Shown: positions 12,858 through 20,320 of the stretch, piece after piece | How the letters are laid out: each line of letters begins with the position of its first letter | How positions within the stretch are numbered: the stretch's first letter is position 1 | From: a virus | DNA length: 21,470 bases | IMG/VR virus record: IMGVR_UViG_3300005253_001093 | Span: 1 to 21,470 of that record | Strand: one strand, 5' to 3' | Notes under the pieces: model-generated | Seen by the model: only the letters and a program-made list of their open reading frames with translations | Told to the model about the DNA's origin: nothing | Databases searched by the model: none | Made by a program: the position numbers and the translations under genes

Positions 12858-13823
12858 ATGTCAGAGTCAAAGGTCGATGTAATTCGTGTAGAAGAAATTC
12901 GAGAGAATCCTATTGCTTTGCGTGCGGTGAATCGTGAAAGTGAAGTTTATATCGGTTTGCGTGATTCCATTCAAGCAGTTGGTTTGATTTCACCTGTCAG
13001 TGTACGTGTCCGCACAGATGACAAAGATGGCACAAAGTATTATGAACTTCTTGACGGTCTACACCGATATTCTGCCGCCAAGGATATTGGTCTTGAGACA
13101 ATTCCGGTCAATATCAAGGATCTTGATGATGCTCAGGCATTGGAAGCTCAGATTATGGCAAATGTCCATAAGGTCGAAACTCGTCCGGTAGAATATACGA
13201 GACAACTGTATCGTATTCTAGGCGGTAATTCTCTTATGACTCTTGCTGAGTTGGCCGTAAAGGTGGCAAAGAGCCCAACATGGATTGGGCAAAGGCTCAA
13301 TCTTTTGAAATTGGATCCTGCCATCCAGAAATTGACTGATGATGGTAAAATCACAGTTACTAATGCAATTCAATTGGCGAAGTTGCCCCCTATTGAGCAA
13401 GTCGATTATATCGAGCAGGCAATGAGTATGGGTGCTGAGGATTTTGTCCCGCTTGTAATGGGCAGAGTCAAAGAAATCAGGGATGCGTCACGCGAAGGTA
13501 GAAAAGCTGACGCTCCGGTTTTTGTCGCCAATCCTAAGCTCCGTAAGGTGGCAGTTTTATCAGAGGAAGTTGATAATTCTGTAATTGGACCTGAGTTGTG
13601 CACTCGTTGTAAGGTTGAAACTCCGGAAGCTGGTTTTAATTTGGGTGTTAAATGGGCGCTCAATATTGACCCTGTTAGTATTGAAGTGCGTACCTCTTTG
13701 GATGCTGAACAAAAGGCCGCTCAAAAAGAAGCTAAGGCTAAGCGTACCGCAGAACGTGAAGCCAAAAAGGCTAAGGAAGCTAAGGAGCGAGCAGACCAAG
13801 CGGCTGCGGCGGCCGGACTTTAA
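12858..13823 (+). CDS. ParB-like nuclease-fold protein with HTH and Lys/Ala tail
   Basis: This 321-residue protein starts at ATG 12858 after AAGGGAG. Residues 7-95 are a ParB/Srx-fold domain (VDVIRVEEIRENP; LRDSIQAVGLISPV; LLDGLHRYSAAKDIGLETIP) with a GLHR version of the GxRR box. Residues 96-120 (IMANVHKVETRPVEYTRQL) correspond to the ENxxR box in diverged form. Residues 127-155 form a helix-turn-helix (MTLAELAVKVAKSPTWIGQ). Residues about 283-321 are a charged Ala/Lys/Glu helix. ParB proteins bind specific DNA sites, often with CTP. No ParA partner is visible, so a role in transcription control or genome organisation is more likely than partition. It is first in the rightward operon and followed by a terminator, so it may be made separately and in excess. 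Confidence 0.82.
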   Translation: MSESKVDVIRVEEIRENPIALRAVNRESEVYIGLRDSIQAVGLISPVSVRVRTDDKDGTKYYELLDGLHRYSAAKDIGLETIPVNIKDLDDAQALEAQIMANVHKVETRPVEYTRQLYRILGGNSLMTLAELAVKVAKSPTWIGQRLNLLKLDPAIQKLTDDGKITVTNAIQLAKLPPIEQVDYIEQAMSMGAEDFVPLVMGRVKEIRDASREGRKADAPVFVANPKLRKVAVLSEEVDNSVIGPELCTRCKVETPEAGFNLGVKWALNIDPVSIEVRTSLDAEQKAAQKEAKAKRTAEREAKKAKEAKERADQAAAAAGL

Positions 13824-13837
13824 GTTTGTAGAATAGG

Positions 13838-13867
13838 CCGCCCTCATATTGAGGGCGGTCTCTTTTT
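13838..13867 (+). terminator. Intrinsic terminator after ParB-like gene
   Basis: CCGCCCTCA and TGAGGGCGG form a perfect 9-bp GC-rich stem with a TAT loop, followed by TCTCTTTTT. It sits between the ParB stop and the AGGAG site of the next gene, with no space for a separate promoter. Downstream genes therefore probably depend on read-through or antitermination. Confidence 0.85.
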
Positions 13868-13877
13868 AGGAGTCACA

Positions 13878-14132
13878 ATGCCTATAAACAGAATTTTAGA
13901 TTGGGCAATTGAAAATGATGTTAAAATCGAATTGTTAAACAGTAAGGGCAGATATGCTTTAGTTATTAGTAAAGGTGAAATTAAGTCTACTTTTTCAATT
14001 GATCAAGGTATAGGTTTTGATTTAGCTCAACATCTCCTGTATCCTGCTATTGAATCAATACGACACAAATCGAATAAAGATTCACTACAACACCACCACC
14101 AGGACCAATTAAACGACCATGACAGAAGATAA
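13878..14132 (+). CDS. Small hypothetical protein (84 aa)
   Basis: ATG 13878 follows AGGAG by 5 bases. The N-terminal two thirds (MPINRILDWAIENDVKIELL, then YALVISKGEIKSTFSID) look like a small alpha/beta domain. The C-terminus is polar and His-rich (SLQHHHQDQLNDHDRR), partly because the reading frame overlaps the next gene by 14 bases. I do not recognise a family. The good ribosome site and position after the terminator support a real gene. Confidence 0.6.
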   Translation: MPINRILDWAIENDVKIELLNSKGRYALVISKGEIKSTFSIDQGIGFDLAQHLLYPAIESIRHKSNKDSLQHHHQDQLNDHDRR

Positions 14133-14775
14133 CCAAAACCAACTGATTCCGAAAGATATTGTAAGCGGAGATTTGTCTACAAATTTTGATGACATTGTAG
14201 CTTCAGGTGATTACCTTGGTAGGCTACAATTATTTGGTTCAAAATCTGACGCAGTAGCTGAAGGGTCTATTTCTGCTGCACATTACGGCCTTGTGAAAGA
14301 CGATGAGATTACGGATCTCGGTGAAGAAATTGATGTTATACTCGTTGGATGGCGTCCAAAAGCGTTGGACACTAGTGGTGATTCACTAATTATTGACCAT
14401 GACGCAAATAGCTCTGTTTTTGCAGAAATTAAAGAACGATCAGGTATCAGAGATTCTGGCTGTATGTATGGACCAGAGTTTTTGGTATGGCTGCCTGAAC
14501 AAGCAGTTTTTGCCACTTACTACATGAGTAGTAAGACTGCTCGACGTGAGGCTAAAAAAGTGCTACCGCTGGTAGGGAAGGCCGCTACTTTTAAGTGCCA
14601 TCTTATCGAGACTGCAAAATATAAATGGCATGGTCCTCTCGTATTCCCATGCTCGGCTCCAATGGTCGCTCTGTCTGAAGACAAGGTAAGGGCAGAATGG
14701 GCAAAATTTATCAATCCACCGAAGTCCGACGTTGAAGTCGCAGAAGATAAAAGCACTGATACAAGGGCACGGTAA
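14119..14775 (+). CDS. Conserved phage protein of unknown function, near replication genes
   Basis: This 218-residue protein has a pattern I have seen in phage proteins without an assigned function: YLGRLQLFGSKSDAVAEG, then HYGLVKDDEITDLG, VILVGWRPKALD, DSGCMYGPEFLVWLPEQAVF, and SSKTARREAKKVLPLVGKAA. The end is acidic and polar (VEVAEDKSTDTRAR), which resembles tails of single-strand DNA-binding proteins. An SSB-like role is therefore conceivable here but not shown. The start at 14119 overlaps the previous gene and has only a weak site (CAGGA, about 15 bases upstream). It is followed after 2 bases by the next gene. The gene is clearly real; the function is open. Confidence 0.7.
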   Translation: MTEDNQNQLIPKDIVSGDLSTNFDDIVASGDYLGRLQLFGSKSDAVAEGSISAAHYGLVKDDEITDLGEEIDVILVGWRPKALDTSGDSLIIDHDANSSVFAEIKERSGIRDSGCMYGPEFLVWLPEQAVFATYYMSSKTARREAKKVLPLVGKAATFKCHLIETAKYKWHGPLVFPCSAPMVALSEDKVRAEWAKFINPPKSDVEVAEDKSTDTRAR

Positions 14776-14777
14776 AT

Positions 14778-15320
14778 ATGGGGGATTCGGCCAGTCAGTC
14801 AGGTGTGAAACCAATAATTGGGTCTACTATATCGTGGGCTGATCTTATAAAGGACATCGCAGAACTGATTGGCCGTTCTCCTACTTCCGGTATTGACTCA
14901 TACAAATACAAACTTTCTGATTATGCTAGTTTTTTAGCTACTGTTAACGAATTCAGAACAGGAAATACACAGAATCCATTAAAAATAATCCAAAATGCAA
15001 ATGATATATTAGATCATTTGCATTTTGGATTTTTAATGTATGGCAAATCCAGTTTGTTTTTCCACATACTTGAACAAACTGATTTGAAAATCACTTCGGT
15101 GCGTGCTAAGAATTACAGAGTAGCAATAGTCACAGGCACCTTAGGTCAATGGAAACAGGCAATAATCAACATTCTTACTAATAAATCAACGTCAGAAGCC
15201 CAATGGGTGTTTAGTTATTGTTATGATTTTTTCCAAAGTATTGGGCTACAGAGTGTTTGGGCCGACTACAGGAAGAAACAAACTGGGGACCACACATATC
15301 TACTGGAGTATAAGAAATGA
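14778..15320 (+). CDS. Hypothetical protein (180 aa) carrying an internal palindrome
   Basis: I do not recognise this protein. It is mixed alpha/beta with aromatic residues near the C-terminus (WVFSYCYDFFQSIGLQSVWADYR) and no known catalytic motif or membrane span. Starting 2 bases after the previous stop, it ends with an ATGA overlap into the next gene, so it belongs to the same translation unit. The unusual feature is a perfect 19-bp inverted repeat at 14987-15031 that encodes IIQNANDILDHLHFGF. Codon use otherwise matches its neighbours. Confidence 0.6.
   Translation: MGDSASQSGVKPIIGSTISWADLIKDIAELIGRSPTSGIDSYKYKLSDYASFLATVNEFRTGNTQNPLKIIQNANDILDHLHFGFLMYGKSSLFFHILEQTDLKITSVRAKNYRVAIVTGTLGQWKQAIINILTNKSTSEAQWVFSYCYDFFQSIGLQSVWADYRKKQTGDHTYLLEYKK
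14987..15031. repeat. Perfect 19-bp inverted repeat within a coding sequence
   Basis: The left arm AATCCAAAATGCAAATGAT (14987-15005) and its exact complement (15013-15031) surround a 7-base loop, ATATTAG. Five T residues (15030-15034) lie at and just beyond the end of the right arm, so the RNA would look like an AT-rich terminator hairpin. A match this long at this spacing is not expected by chance. Both arms are in frame within the 180-residue gene. Confidence 0.9.
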
Positions 15321-16074: not shown

Positions 16075-16127
16075 GTTTTATTGGAGTCGGTAAAACAATT
16101 ATACCTGTCTATAGCGAAATAATATGA
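16071..16127 (+). CDS. Possible 18-residue peptide coupled to the SNF2 gene
   Basis: ATG 16071 overlaps the stop of the preceding frame (ATGA), and GGGTAGG lies 2 bases upstream. It encodes MSFIGVGKTIIPVYSEII and ends at a TGA overlapping the ATG of the SNF2 helicase. The SNF2 start itself has no Shine-Dalgarno sequence, so translation of this frame could deliver ribosomes to it. It may work as a coupling leader rather than as a peptide with its own role. Confidence 0.4.
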   Translation: MSFIGVGKTIIPVYSEII

Positions 16128-17935
16128 AAAAACAAATCAAAGTTAAAATAGGCCGGTTTCTATATCCAGTGACCTTGGACTATCGCGGCGATCGTATTTT
16201 CGTTGTGTTTAAGTACAACAAAGCTATCATTGCAGAAATTAAGGCTATGGAAGGTGCTAAGTGGCATGGTTTTGATACTCCGCCTCTAAAAGTGTGGAGT
16301 ATAGCTAATTCTTCTCGAAACGAATTCCAACTTGGATATCTACAGGGAAAGAATCCGTACCAACACTATGATACTGAAATCATAGAAAATGAGTATGTCA
16401 GATCCTTGTATCAACACCAAAAAGAATTGGCTGATTTTGCCTTAGCCAGACACCATTGCATTATTGCAGGTGAAATGGGCGTGGGTAAGACTCTTTCTGC
16501 TATTGAAGTTATGGAGCAATCTGGAACTTTGGATTGGTGGTATGTGGCACCTAAGAGTGCCCTTAAAGCAGTAGAAAGAGAATTAGTTCTTTGGAATTGC
16601 AGAGTAATTCCTAAAATGATGACGTATGAGGGACTAGTTAAGTGGGTAAAACAGAACGAAAACCTCTCTGAGTCAATTAGTGCTGAAATTCCTAGAGGTA
16701 TTGTATTTGATGAATCAGCAAGAATCAAGAATCCTACGGCACAAAGATCCCAGGCCGCTAAAGCAGTAGCTGATGCTATTAGAAATCTATGGGGCTATGA
16801 TGGCTATATAATACTAATGAGCGGTGCTCCTGCCCCCAAGGTACCTGTTGATTGGTGGCATCAGTGTGAAGTAGCCTGCCCAGGATTCATTAGAGAAGGG
16901 ACCAAAGCCAAGTTTCAGAAAAGACTTGGTATAATTACACAGGTGGATTTCTATGGTACAGGAAACAGTTTTCCTAAATTGGAGTCTTGGCTTGATGATG
17001 AAAATAAATGTGCTATTTGCGGGAAGCTGGAGAAAGAACATATTTTTGACGATAATGACCATACTTTTAAGAAAAGTGTCAATGAAGTCAGCTATTTATA
17101 TGAGCGTATGCAAGGATTAGTCATAGTTAAACTAAAAAAAGAATGTTTGGATTTACCGGATAAACATTATCGTAAAATCATTCTTGAACCTTCTACGAAA
17201 ATAACTAATCTCGCAAAGACACTTCTACAAACAGCTAAGACTACTATAGCCGGTATCACTTTAATTCGAGAATTAAGTGACGGTTTTCAATATAATAAGA
17301 AAAAGACGGGAACTGAAGTTTGTCCTATTTGTCGAGGAGCTGAAGAGCTACCCGATCCGTTAAACGAAAATGAACTGGCTCTATGTGATGGTTGCGGTGG
17401 TGCAGGTGAGCGTACTGTATATACTAGAGTGACAGAGCAGGTCGAAACTCCAAAAGAAGGTGCTCTTTGTTCACTACTTGATGAATATGGTGAAGTAGGT
17501 CGAGTAGTTATATTTGGCGGGTTCACTGGCTCTATCGATCGATGTGAGATTATTTGTCAGGATAACGGTTGGGAAACTATTAGAGTAGACGGTAGAGGTT
17601 GGAGCCATAACTATACTGATCCATTAGAAGTTTTTCAAAATGGGCACAAAGAACATCCACGTATCGCCTTTATTGGACAACCTGGTGCTGGTGGAATCGG
17701 ACTGACTTTAACTGCATCGCCAGTTGTAATTTATTATTCCAATGATTTTAATGCCGAAAACAGGATACAGTCGGAAGATCGCTGTCACCGAATAGGTATG
17801 GATATGAATAGGGGGTGTACGATTATTGATTTAATACATTTACCGACGGATGAATTAATTCTCGACAATCTACAGAAAAAACGCGATCTACAAGCTCTTA
17901 CAATGGGTCAATTACAACAAGCATTAGGGAAATAA
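16124..17935 (+). CDS. SNF2-type ATP-dependent DNA helicase/translocase with Zn-cluster inserts
   Basis: This 603-residue superfamily 2 protein has Walker A GEMGVGKT (116-123), motif Ia APKSALKAV, DESA in place of DEAH (196-199), LMSGAP as motif III (231-236), QPGAGGIGLTLT as motif V (519-530) and a Q-x3-RCHRIG type motif VI (549-558). Two Cys/His groups lie between the RecA lobes: C296-x2-C299 with H306 and H313, and C400-x2-C403 with C421-x2-C424, the latter with DnaJ-like CxxCxG spacing. Such proteins translocate on duplex DNA and remodel forks or protein-DNA complexes. Its start lacks a ribosome site and is coupled to the preceding small frame. It is followed after 2 bases by the phosphoesterase gene. 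A role in phage replication or recombination is inferred. Confidence 0.85.
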   Translation: MKKQIKVKIGRFLYPVTLDYRGDRIFVVFKYNKAIIAEIKAMEGAKWHGFDTPPLKVWSIANSSRNEFQLGYLQGKNPYQHYDTEIIENEYVRSLYQHQKELADFALARHHCIIAGEMGVGKTLSAIEVMEQSGTLDWWYVAPKSALKAVERELVLWNCRVIPKMMTYEGLVKWVKQNENLSESISAEIPRGIVFDESARIKNPTAQRSQAAKAVADAIRNLWGYDGYIILMSGAPAPKVPVDWWHQCEVACPGFIREGTKAKFQKRLGIITQVDFYGTGNSFPKLESWLDDENKCAICGKLEKEHIFDDNDHTFKKSVNEVSYLYERMQGLVIVKLKKECLDLPDKHYRKIILEPSTKITNLAKTLLQTAKTTIAGITLIRELSDGFQYNKKKTGTEVCPICRGAEELPDPLNENELALCDGCGGAGERTVYTRVTEQVETPKEGALCSLLDEYGEVGRVVIFGGFTGSIDRCEIICQDNGWETIRVDGRGWSHNYTDPLEVFQNGHKEHPRIAFIGQPGAGGIGLTLTASPVVIYYSNDFNAENRIQSEDRCHRIGMDMNRGCTIIDLIHLPTDELILDNLQKKRDLQALTMGQLQQALGK

Positions 17936-19402: not shown

Positions 19403-20320
19403 ATGTTTTGTAGTAATTGTTTTGGACCTATTGAAGACAATGAGTGTAGAGCATGTTACGGTAAAGGTATACGGTATAAACGGTTAGATGAATACTCTGT
19501 AGTAAATATACCATTAGATAGAATATACTCAGATCCCATTTTCAACTGCCGCGGTACGATAGTACCATTAGATGTTATCGATCTAGTCAAAGATATTGAA
19601 AAGACTGGACTACAATCTCCAATAGCAATTCAACCAATTTCTGATGTTTCTGAATTTCCTGAAGAAGATTATGATTATAGAATCGTTGCAGGTCATCGAC
19701 GTTTCGCATCGTTCAAAATCTTAAAGAAAGAAACAATCCCTGCGATGATAAAAGTTGGACTCTCTGAGGTCCGTGCTAAATTGATAAATCTTGCGGAGAA
19801 TCTCAAACGCCAAGATTTGAATATCGTACAAGAAGCTAATGCGATTGAACATCTACGTAAATTAGGCTTAAATCGCCGGCAAGTCGGTGAAGAGCTTGGC
19901 GTTAGTCCGTCATGGGTTCAAGTTCGCTATAACCTTTTAGACTTACCAATAGAGATACGCGATGAAGTTGCAGCTGGTATGATTAACCAGTACCAGATTA
20001 AAGAGATTTATAGTTTAGAGTCAAAAGAGCAACAATTTGAAGCAGTAAAACAAATTAAAGACGCTAAACTTCGCGGTGAACGCGGTATCAGTGTAGGTAA
20101 AAAGCCGAAAGATAGCCCTTTTAAGAAACGTCGACAACCTGTAAATGTTGTTCAAGAAATGATTGAACATATAGGTAAAACTGTAGGTTATGGACTACAT
20201 ACTAGAGTTTTAGCTTGGGCTAATGGCAATATCAATTCTGCAGAATTGTATTTTGATATTAAAAGCGAAGCAGATGAAAAAGGTATTAACTATGAAATCC
20301 CGATCAGAGGTGTAGAGTGA
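19403..20320 (+). CDS. ParB-like protein with N-terminal zinc-finger-like cluster
   Basis: This 305-residue protein starts at ATG 19403 with AGGAGAG upstream. Residues 3-18 contain two CxxC pairs (C3, C6, C15, C18), a short zinc-binding knuckle. Residues 32-135 are a ParB nuclease-fold domain: VVNIPLDRIYSDP, VKDIEKTGLQSPIAI, and YRIVAGHRRFASF with the GxRR box at 97-100. AENLKRQDLNIVQEANAIEH (131-150) is a good ENxxR box, so CTP binding is plausible. An HTH follows at about 151-180 (LGLNRRQVGEELGVSPSW). The remainder is a basic region and a C-terminal helical part. No ParA gene is seen. It probably binds DNA as a regulator, or assists replication or packaging. It differs from the other ParB-like protein in this window. 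Confidence 0.82.
   Translation: MFCSNCFGPIEDNECRACYGKGIRYKRLDEYSVVNIPLDRIYSDPIFNCRGTIVPLDVIDLVKDIEKTGLQSPIAIQPISDVSEFPEEDYDYRIVAGHRRFASFKILKKETIPAMIKVGLSEVRAKLINLAENLKRQDLNIVQEANAIEHLRKLGLNRRQVGEELGVSPSWVQVRYNLLDLPIEIRDEVAAGMINQYQIKEIYSLESKEQQFEAVKQIKDAKLRGERGISVGKKPKDSPFKKRRQPVNVVQEMIEHIGKTVGYGLHTRVLAWANGNINSAELYFDIKSEADEKGINYEIPIRGVE

Follow-up and report, generated by a model that had tools for sequence, protein, structure and literature searches.

In an uncultured phage genome, a perfect palindrome inside the coding sequence of the gene p180 may serve as an intrinsic terminator or attenuator of the transcript of the preceding gene, p218, written into p180 codons. It was found in a 21,470-bp virus record of IMG/VR, analysed at its full length (hereafter the window), and we put the probability of this reading at roughly 55%. 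The argument is carried by the hairpin and its placement, a hairpin at the 3′ end of p218 across the clade, a link between p180 hairpins and the loss of the p218-p180 gap, and a bias of p180 stems towards the sense strand. Of the explanations that an earlier note on this DNA had listed, the one with the best support is an internal attenuator upstream of the SNF2 and polymerase genes, and it is supported in part. Nothing in the present analyses pointed to an origin hairpin, which that note had also listed.

The genes around the palindrome are arranged in the order ParB-like, p84, p218, p180, two small ORFs, SNF2-family helicase, exonuclease, a second ParB-like gene and a putative polymerase-like ORF, the last label being the name used for that ORF in the earlier note. 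On the + strand, p218 (14119-14775) and p180 (14778-15320) are 2 nt apart, and the helicase gene (16124-17935), whose transcription the hairpin would attenuate, follows downstream. Two different ParB-like proteins (12858-13823 and 19403-20320) are encoded in one replication module, a pattern kept in most related loci. Two other hairpins were observed in the window: a GC-rich, canonical 12-bp terminator-like hairpin with the tail CTTTTTAG directly after the first ParB-like gene (13835-13861), and a perfect 12-bp intergenic hairpin (1495-1524, -24.3 kcal/mol) that lacks a T-run and follows the ORF at 884-1483.

The left arm (14987-15005, + strand; AATCCAAAATGCAAATGAT) and the right arm (15013-15031, + strand) are exactly complementary across all 19 bases, separated by the 7-nt loop ATATTAG (15006-15012, + strand), as the earlier note had described, and the p180 reading frame runs straight through them. 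The note had also placed five T residues at the end of the right arm; the T-run is present (15030-15034, + strand), but only two of the five lie inside the arm and the rest lie beyond it. A 17-bp core stem (14989-15029, -21.7 kcal/mol) has CC/GG at its base and is followed directly by TTTTTAAT, which would be the U-tract of a terminator, its five T residues being fewer than in classical tracts. Past a 3-nt bulge, the stem extends to 14977-15038 (+ strand; CATTAAAA / TTTTAATG) and reaches -28.2 kcal/mol. Apart from the CC/GG near the base, the 19-bp stem is A+T-rich, with 5 G-C pairs of 19. With 17-19 bp, -21.7 to -28.2 kcal/mol and a loop of 7 nt, the structure is as stable as expected of an intrinsic terminator stem-loop and falls within the loop range of 3-8 nt. 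A consensus scan classed it as terminator-like, although the same scan called 5 terminators in the region against 4.8 in shuffles, that is, no excess. Rfam covariance models at the gathering score gave 0 matches in the window, and neither known RNA families nor tRNAs were found there.

The pairing is far beyond what composition or coding would produce. The RNA fold z-score of the palindrome was -5.8, and it is the sole perfect inverted repeat in the window with arms of at least 13 bp and a loop of at most 60 nt; third-order Markov simulation of 1.28 Mb of the clade produced one such repeat, with 13-bp arms, and none longer. Given the protein and the codon usage of the genome, the probability of 19 perfect pairs is 4.5e-5, and only 1 of 221,184 synonymous versions reached 19 pairs. 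No second copy of the arm occurs elsewhere in the window, and a search of IMG/VR with the 19-base arm returned three matches, none with a hairpin. Chance or an assembly artefact is accordingly a very improbable explanation: the window is a single metagenomic contig without a close relative, but such a repeat is expected at a negligible rate by chance, the residues encoded by the two arms are typical of the family, and the reading frame is uninterrupted.

Among named phages, neither p218 nor p180 nor the DNA of 12.8-20.7 kb revealed a near relative. A direct homologue search with p180 found nothing in IMG/VR and only insignificant matches (E 0.8) in named phages, and a family-wide p180 alignment was too diverse to serve as a scan query; p180 homologues were recovered solely via the proteins of neighbouring genes. 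Scans with these proteins uncovered more than 100 loci of an uncultured clade, with p180 in 103 of 105. Two members (L189 and L190) lie in MAG contigs labelled Anaerolinea and Planctomycetota, which hints at possible hosts. In three others, the SNF2 helicase match is split in two parts 0.4-1 kb apart (L017 4947-7760, L023 7662-9956 and L033 7997-11002), which suggests that the helicase gene contains an insert, intein or intron. The p218 protein is conserved across the clade, beta-rich and without a family match; its model gave weak fold matches, none significant, to the phiC31 recombination directionality factor and to the phage and plasmid ssDNA-binding proteins PRD1 SSB P12 and PrgE, and it may be a nucleic-acid-binding protein.

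The 180-residue product of p180 is predicted to have the fold of ThyX. p180 matched no Pfam or NCBIfam entry and none of the PHROGs convincingly. The AlphaFold2 model (pLDDT 92.9) matched ThyX in all 17 Foldseek hits at E ≤0.001 (best E 1.8e-5), and ThyX also made up the top four hits of a profile search of PDB sequences (E 0.012-0.2). The RHR of the RHR(x7)S signature is absent from 91 of 92 p180 proteins, and the one RHR that occurs, in L148, is not followed by an S at the distance that the signature demands. Because this signature is missing, a role as a standard ThyX enzyme appears unlikely for the modelled protein, and the family is possibly a non-enzymatic or altered-function relative of ThyX. 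Such a ThyX-fold family without RHR(x7)S is widespread: in the window and 91 related loci, its gene sits after p218 and before the SNF2 helicase.

In alignments, p180 homologues continue across the palindrome with no gap and share the motif encoded there, L-R-D/N-A-N-D-L-L-N/D-H-L-x-F-G/S-F-L. The insertion of a palindromic element in frame, which the earlier note had considered and which would leave a clean gap in homologues, was therefore rejected. Both arms code for family-typical, conserved residues, the right arm for the family-conserved D-H-L-x-F-G-F. Selection for the exact palindrome, also put forward in that note, fared no better: similar residues occur unpaired in L017 and L006, and by the criterion that the note itself had set, the exact palindrome is therefore not maintained. 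A hairpin fixed at one site throughout the family was likewise unsupported, the median fold z-score of p180 (-0.49) being like that of other genes (p = 0.13). Strong p180 hairpins are sporadic across the family and fall mostly at residues 17-40 and 65-80. The recurring feature is a hairpin at this position of the transcript and not this particular sequence.

How the pairing became perfect is suggested by L006, which has the same 6-bp core, AATGAT-N7-ATCATT, and the same 7-nt loop; in the window, this core is extended outward. The core is set by the conserved codons N-D and D/N-H. Fold-back template switching during replication could have perfected such a short imperfect palindrome by copying one arm onto the other, with subsequent drift to fixation in a fast-evolving gene, in which case the hairpin would be functionless. 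Quasipalindrome template switching is an established maker of perfect hairpins (PMC8794818, PMC7202029) and accounts for the step from a short core to a perfect stem in one event. The arms are perfect and have no G-U pair, and Q72 in the left arm stands in place of a family-typical R, as though this arm had been overwritten, while the residues of the right arm are strongly conserved. The nearest p180 homologue is 42% identical, too distant to show the replacement of one arm by the reverse complement of the other. A functionless accident of this kind is, in our judgement, unlikely given the comparative evidence below, but template switching may be the origin of the perfect pairing and is compatible with later selection.

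Evidence for a function at the end of p218 comes from its 3′ side in the relatives. Of 92 loci, 49% have a hairpin (stem score of at least 10, loop of at most 12 nt) no more than 75 nt past the p218 stop; the corresponding share is 20% after ParB and 0-4% after p180, SNF2, ParB2 and exo. The gap hairpins, counted in 57 loci, start at a median of 13 nt after the p218 stop, and their 8-nt tails contain 44% T against a background of 26% (p = 7e-8), a T-richness like that of intrinsic terminators. At least 5 T in 8 were present in 19 of the 57, and many have no clear U-tract. This last observation would suit a different role, in which the hairpin is an RNase III site or a barrier to 3′ exonucleases that guards the p218 part of the mRNA. 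RNase III is suited by long perfect stems, and some p180 hairpins have a weak tail (L014) or none at all (the 17-bp stem of L023). RNase III processing or mRNA stabilisation could yield the same pattern. However, the overall T enrichment of the tails and the five-T run directly after the CC/GG base of the window stem speak against it, and we consider processing or stabilisation rather improbable as the main role.

In 11 genomes, the window included, p218 and p180 abut (a gap of at most 30 nt), leaving no room for a gap hairpin, and it is here that long stems appear within p180. The median of the best p180 stem score was 13.3 in the 11 abutting loci versus 9.2 in the 81 spaced ones (p = 2.4e-5), and long stems (score of at least 12.5) were present in 8 of 11 versus 5 of 81 (p = 1.9e-6). 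No such difference between abutting and spaced loci was seen in the coding sequence of p218 or SNF2, and the association was stable across gap limits of 0-50 nt. Terminator-like p180 hairpins, defined by at least 20 kcal/mol and a T-rich tail, occurred in 6 of 11 abutting versus 8 of 81 spaced loci (p = 0.0013), and 12 synonymous shuffles of each of the six (L086, L014, L018, L130, the window and L023) all fell short of the score; as a continuous measure, the terminator score did not differ significantly between abutting and spaced loci (p = 0.10).

The association has exceptions and was formed after the fact. Three abutting genomes have no long p180 stem (L039, L040 and L219, the last of which was found later), and 15 of the 81 spaced genomes also have a p180 segment with a folding z-score below -5. 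The hypothesis was framed post hoc, from the 78 loci recovered first; of the 22 that joined them later, the abutting L130 fits it and the abutting L219 does not. The last scan gave 8 new loci, including L219 and also L221, which is spaced and has a long stem. With all loci pooled, 8 of 12 abutting versus 6 of 88 spaced loci had long stems (p = 6e-6). On a tree of SNF2 proteins, in which many branches are weakly supported, abutting requires about 8 changes; the well-supported branches offer 3 independent contrasts, of which 2.2 agree on average and 0 oppose, which is not significant.

The p180 hairpins of different loci are distinct structures, among them those of L023 (17 bp), L022 (12 bp inside a much longer stem), L014, L101, L086, L065/L052 and L035/L221. 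Compared with synonymous shuffles, 5.3% of p180 folding segments had a z-score below -4, versus 0.3-2.0% in other genes, while the medians were alike. Stems of at least 12 bp with 1-3 G-U pairs numbered 22 on the sense strand of p180 (3.0 expected) and 4 on the antisense strand (2.7 expected); roughly 5 of these sense stems fall before the true start, where ORF starts had been called too early, and about 17 remain. The sense bias is weaker in other genes, for example 45 versus 31 in the class 'other'. An excess of G-U stems confined to the mRNA strand is predicted by selection on RNA and not by copying of DNA strands alone, and the bias in these sequences thus appears to point to RNA-level selection. 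A pure mutation hot spot is weakened by this strand asymmetry.

Pairing is also conserved between L035 and L221, whose p180 proteins share 68% amino acid identity and use the same codon at 52 of 114 identical residues (46%). Both keep a 14-15-bp p180 hairpin near the site of the window hairpin, with G-U/G-C exchanges that preserve pairing. Since both have a p218-p180 gap, these two genomes speak for general selection on hairpins in p180 and not for the idea of gap loss. Template switching alone predicts neither this conserved hairpin nor the sense-strand excess of G-U stems and, as a mutation process, leaves the link to the missing gap unexplained.

We therefore favour the reading of the palindrome as a terminator or attenuator of the p218 transcript, which would work as follows. 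In most relatives the hairpin lies in the p218-p180 gap, and where the genes abut, as here, it would have moved into p180 codons. RNA polymerase moving past p218 would form the 17-19-bp stem and then U5, at which a fraction of the complexes would stop; p218 output would thereby exceed that of p180, the SNF2 helicase, the exonuclease and the polymerase. A ribosome following RNA polymerase closely could melt the hairpin in the translated RNA, and transcription would go on. In E. coli, intrinsic terminator hairpins are blocked by translating ribosomes (PMC5021804), and a hairpin in translated RNA could therefore respond to p180 translation. Termination is made less certain by the position of the window hairpin, 212 nt beyond the p218 stop and much farther than the gap hairpins of relatives, and by its A+T-rich stem and U-tract of only five.

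The putative element, read from sequence, resembles intrinsic (Rho-independent) terminators and attenuators in the G/C pairs at the stem base beside a U run, in its position downstream of the upstream cistron, and in the T-enriched tails across the clade; unlike them, the window hairpin lies in in-frame coding sequence, its stem is mostly A-U and its U-tract is short. In E. coli, a minority of ORF-internal 3′ ends, such as aceK int, fit intrinsic termination (PMC7815308). Those ends were mapped in cells, whereas the phage case comes from comparative sequence alone, and in the phage clade, unlike in E. coli, the same gene is used repeatedly when intergenic space is lost. Coding perfect inverted repeats of up to 284 bp, with both arms encoding conserved residues, are known from Nematomorpha mitochondria (PMC6649704). 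Both phage arms likewise encode conserved residues, but the phage repeats are 12-19 bp long and tied to gene order.

Extended to the whole clade, the terminator reading would mean that the terminator of one gene was repeatedly recoded into the next gene upon gap loss and, being translated, became a ribosome-sensed switch in which p180 translation decides transcription of the replication genes. This broader proposal, drawn from the sequence comparisons above, is tentative. In the part of the literature covered, no report was found of a terminator that had been recoded into the following gene after the gap was lost.

The locus offers a testable case in which a protein code and a transcript-end signal would share one stretch of DNA, in several distant lineages, upon loss of gene spacing. 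It also provides a comparative route to separate selected coding hairpins from template-switch scars, by the association with gap loss, the sense-strand G-U asymmetry and synonymous shuffles. Together, these findings suggest that a long palindrome read in frame in a phage gene is not necessarily an accident or an insert.
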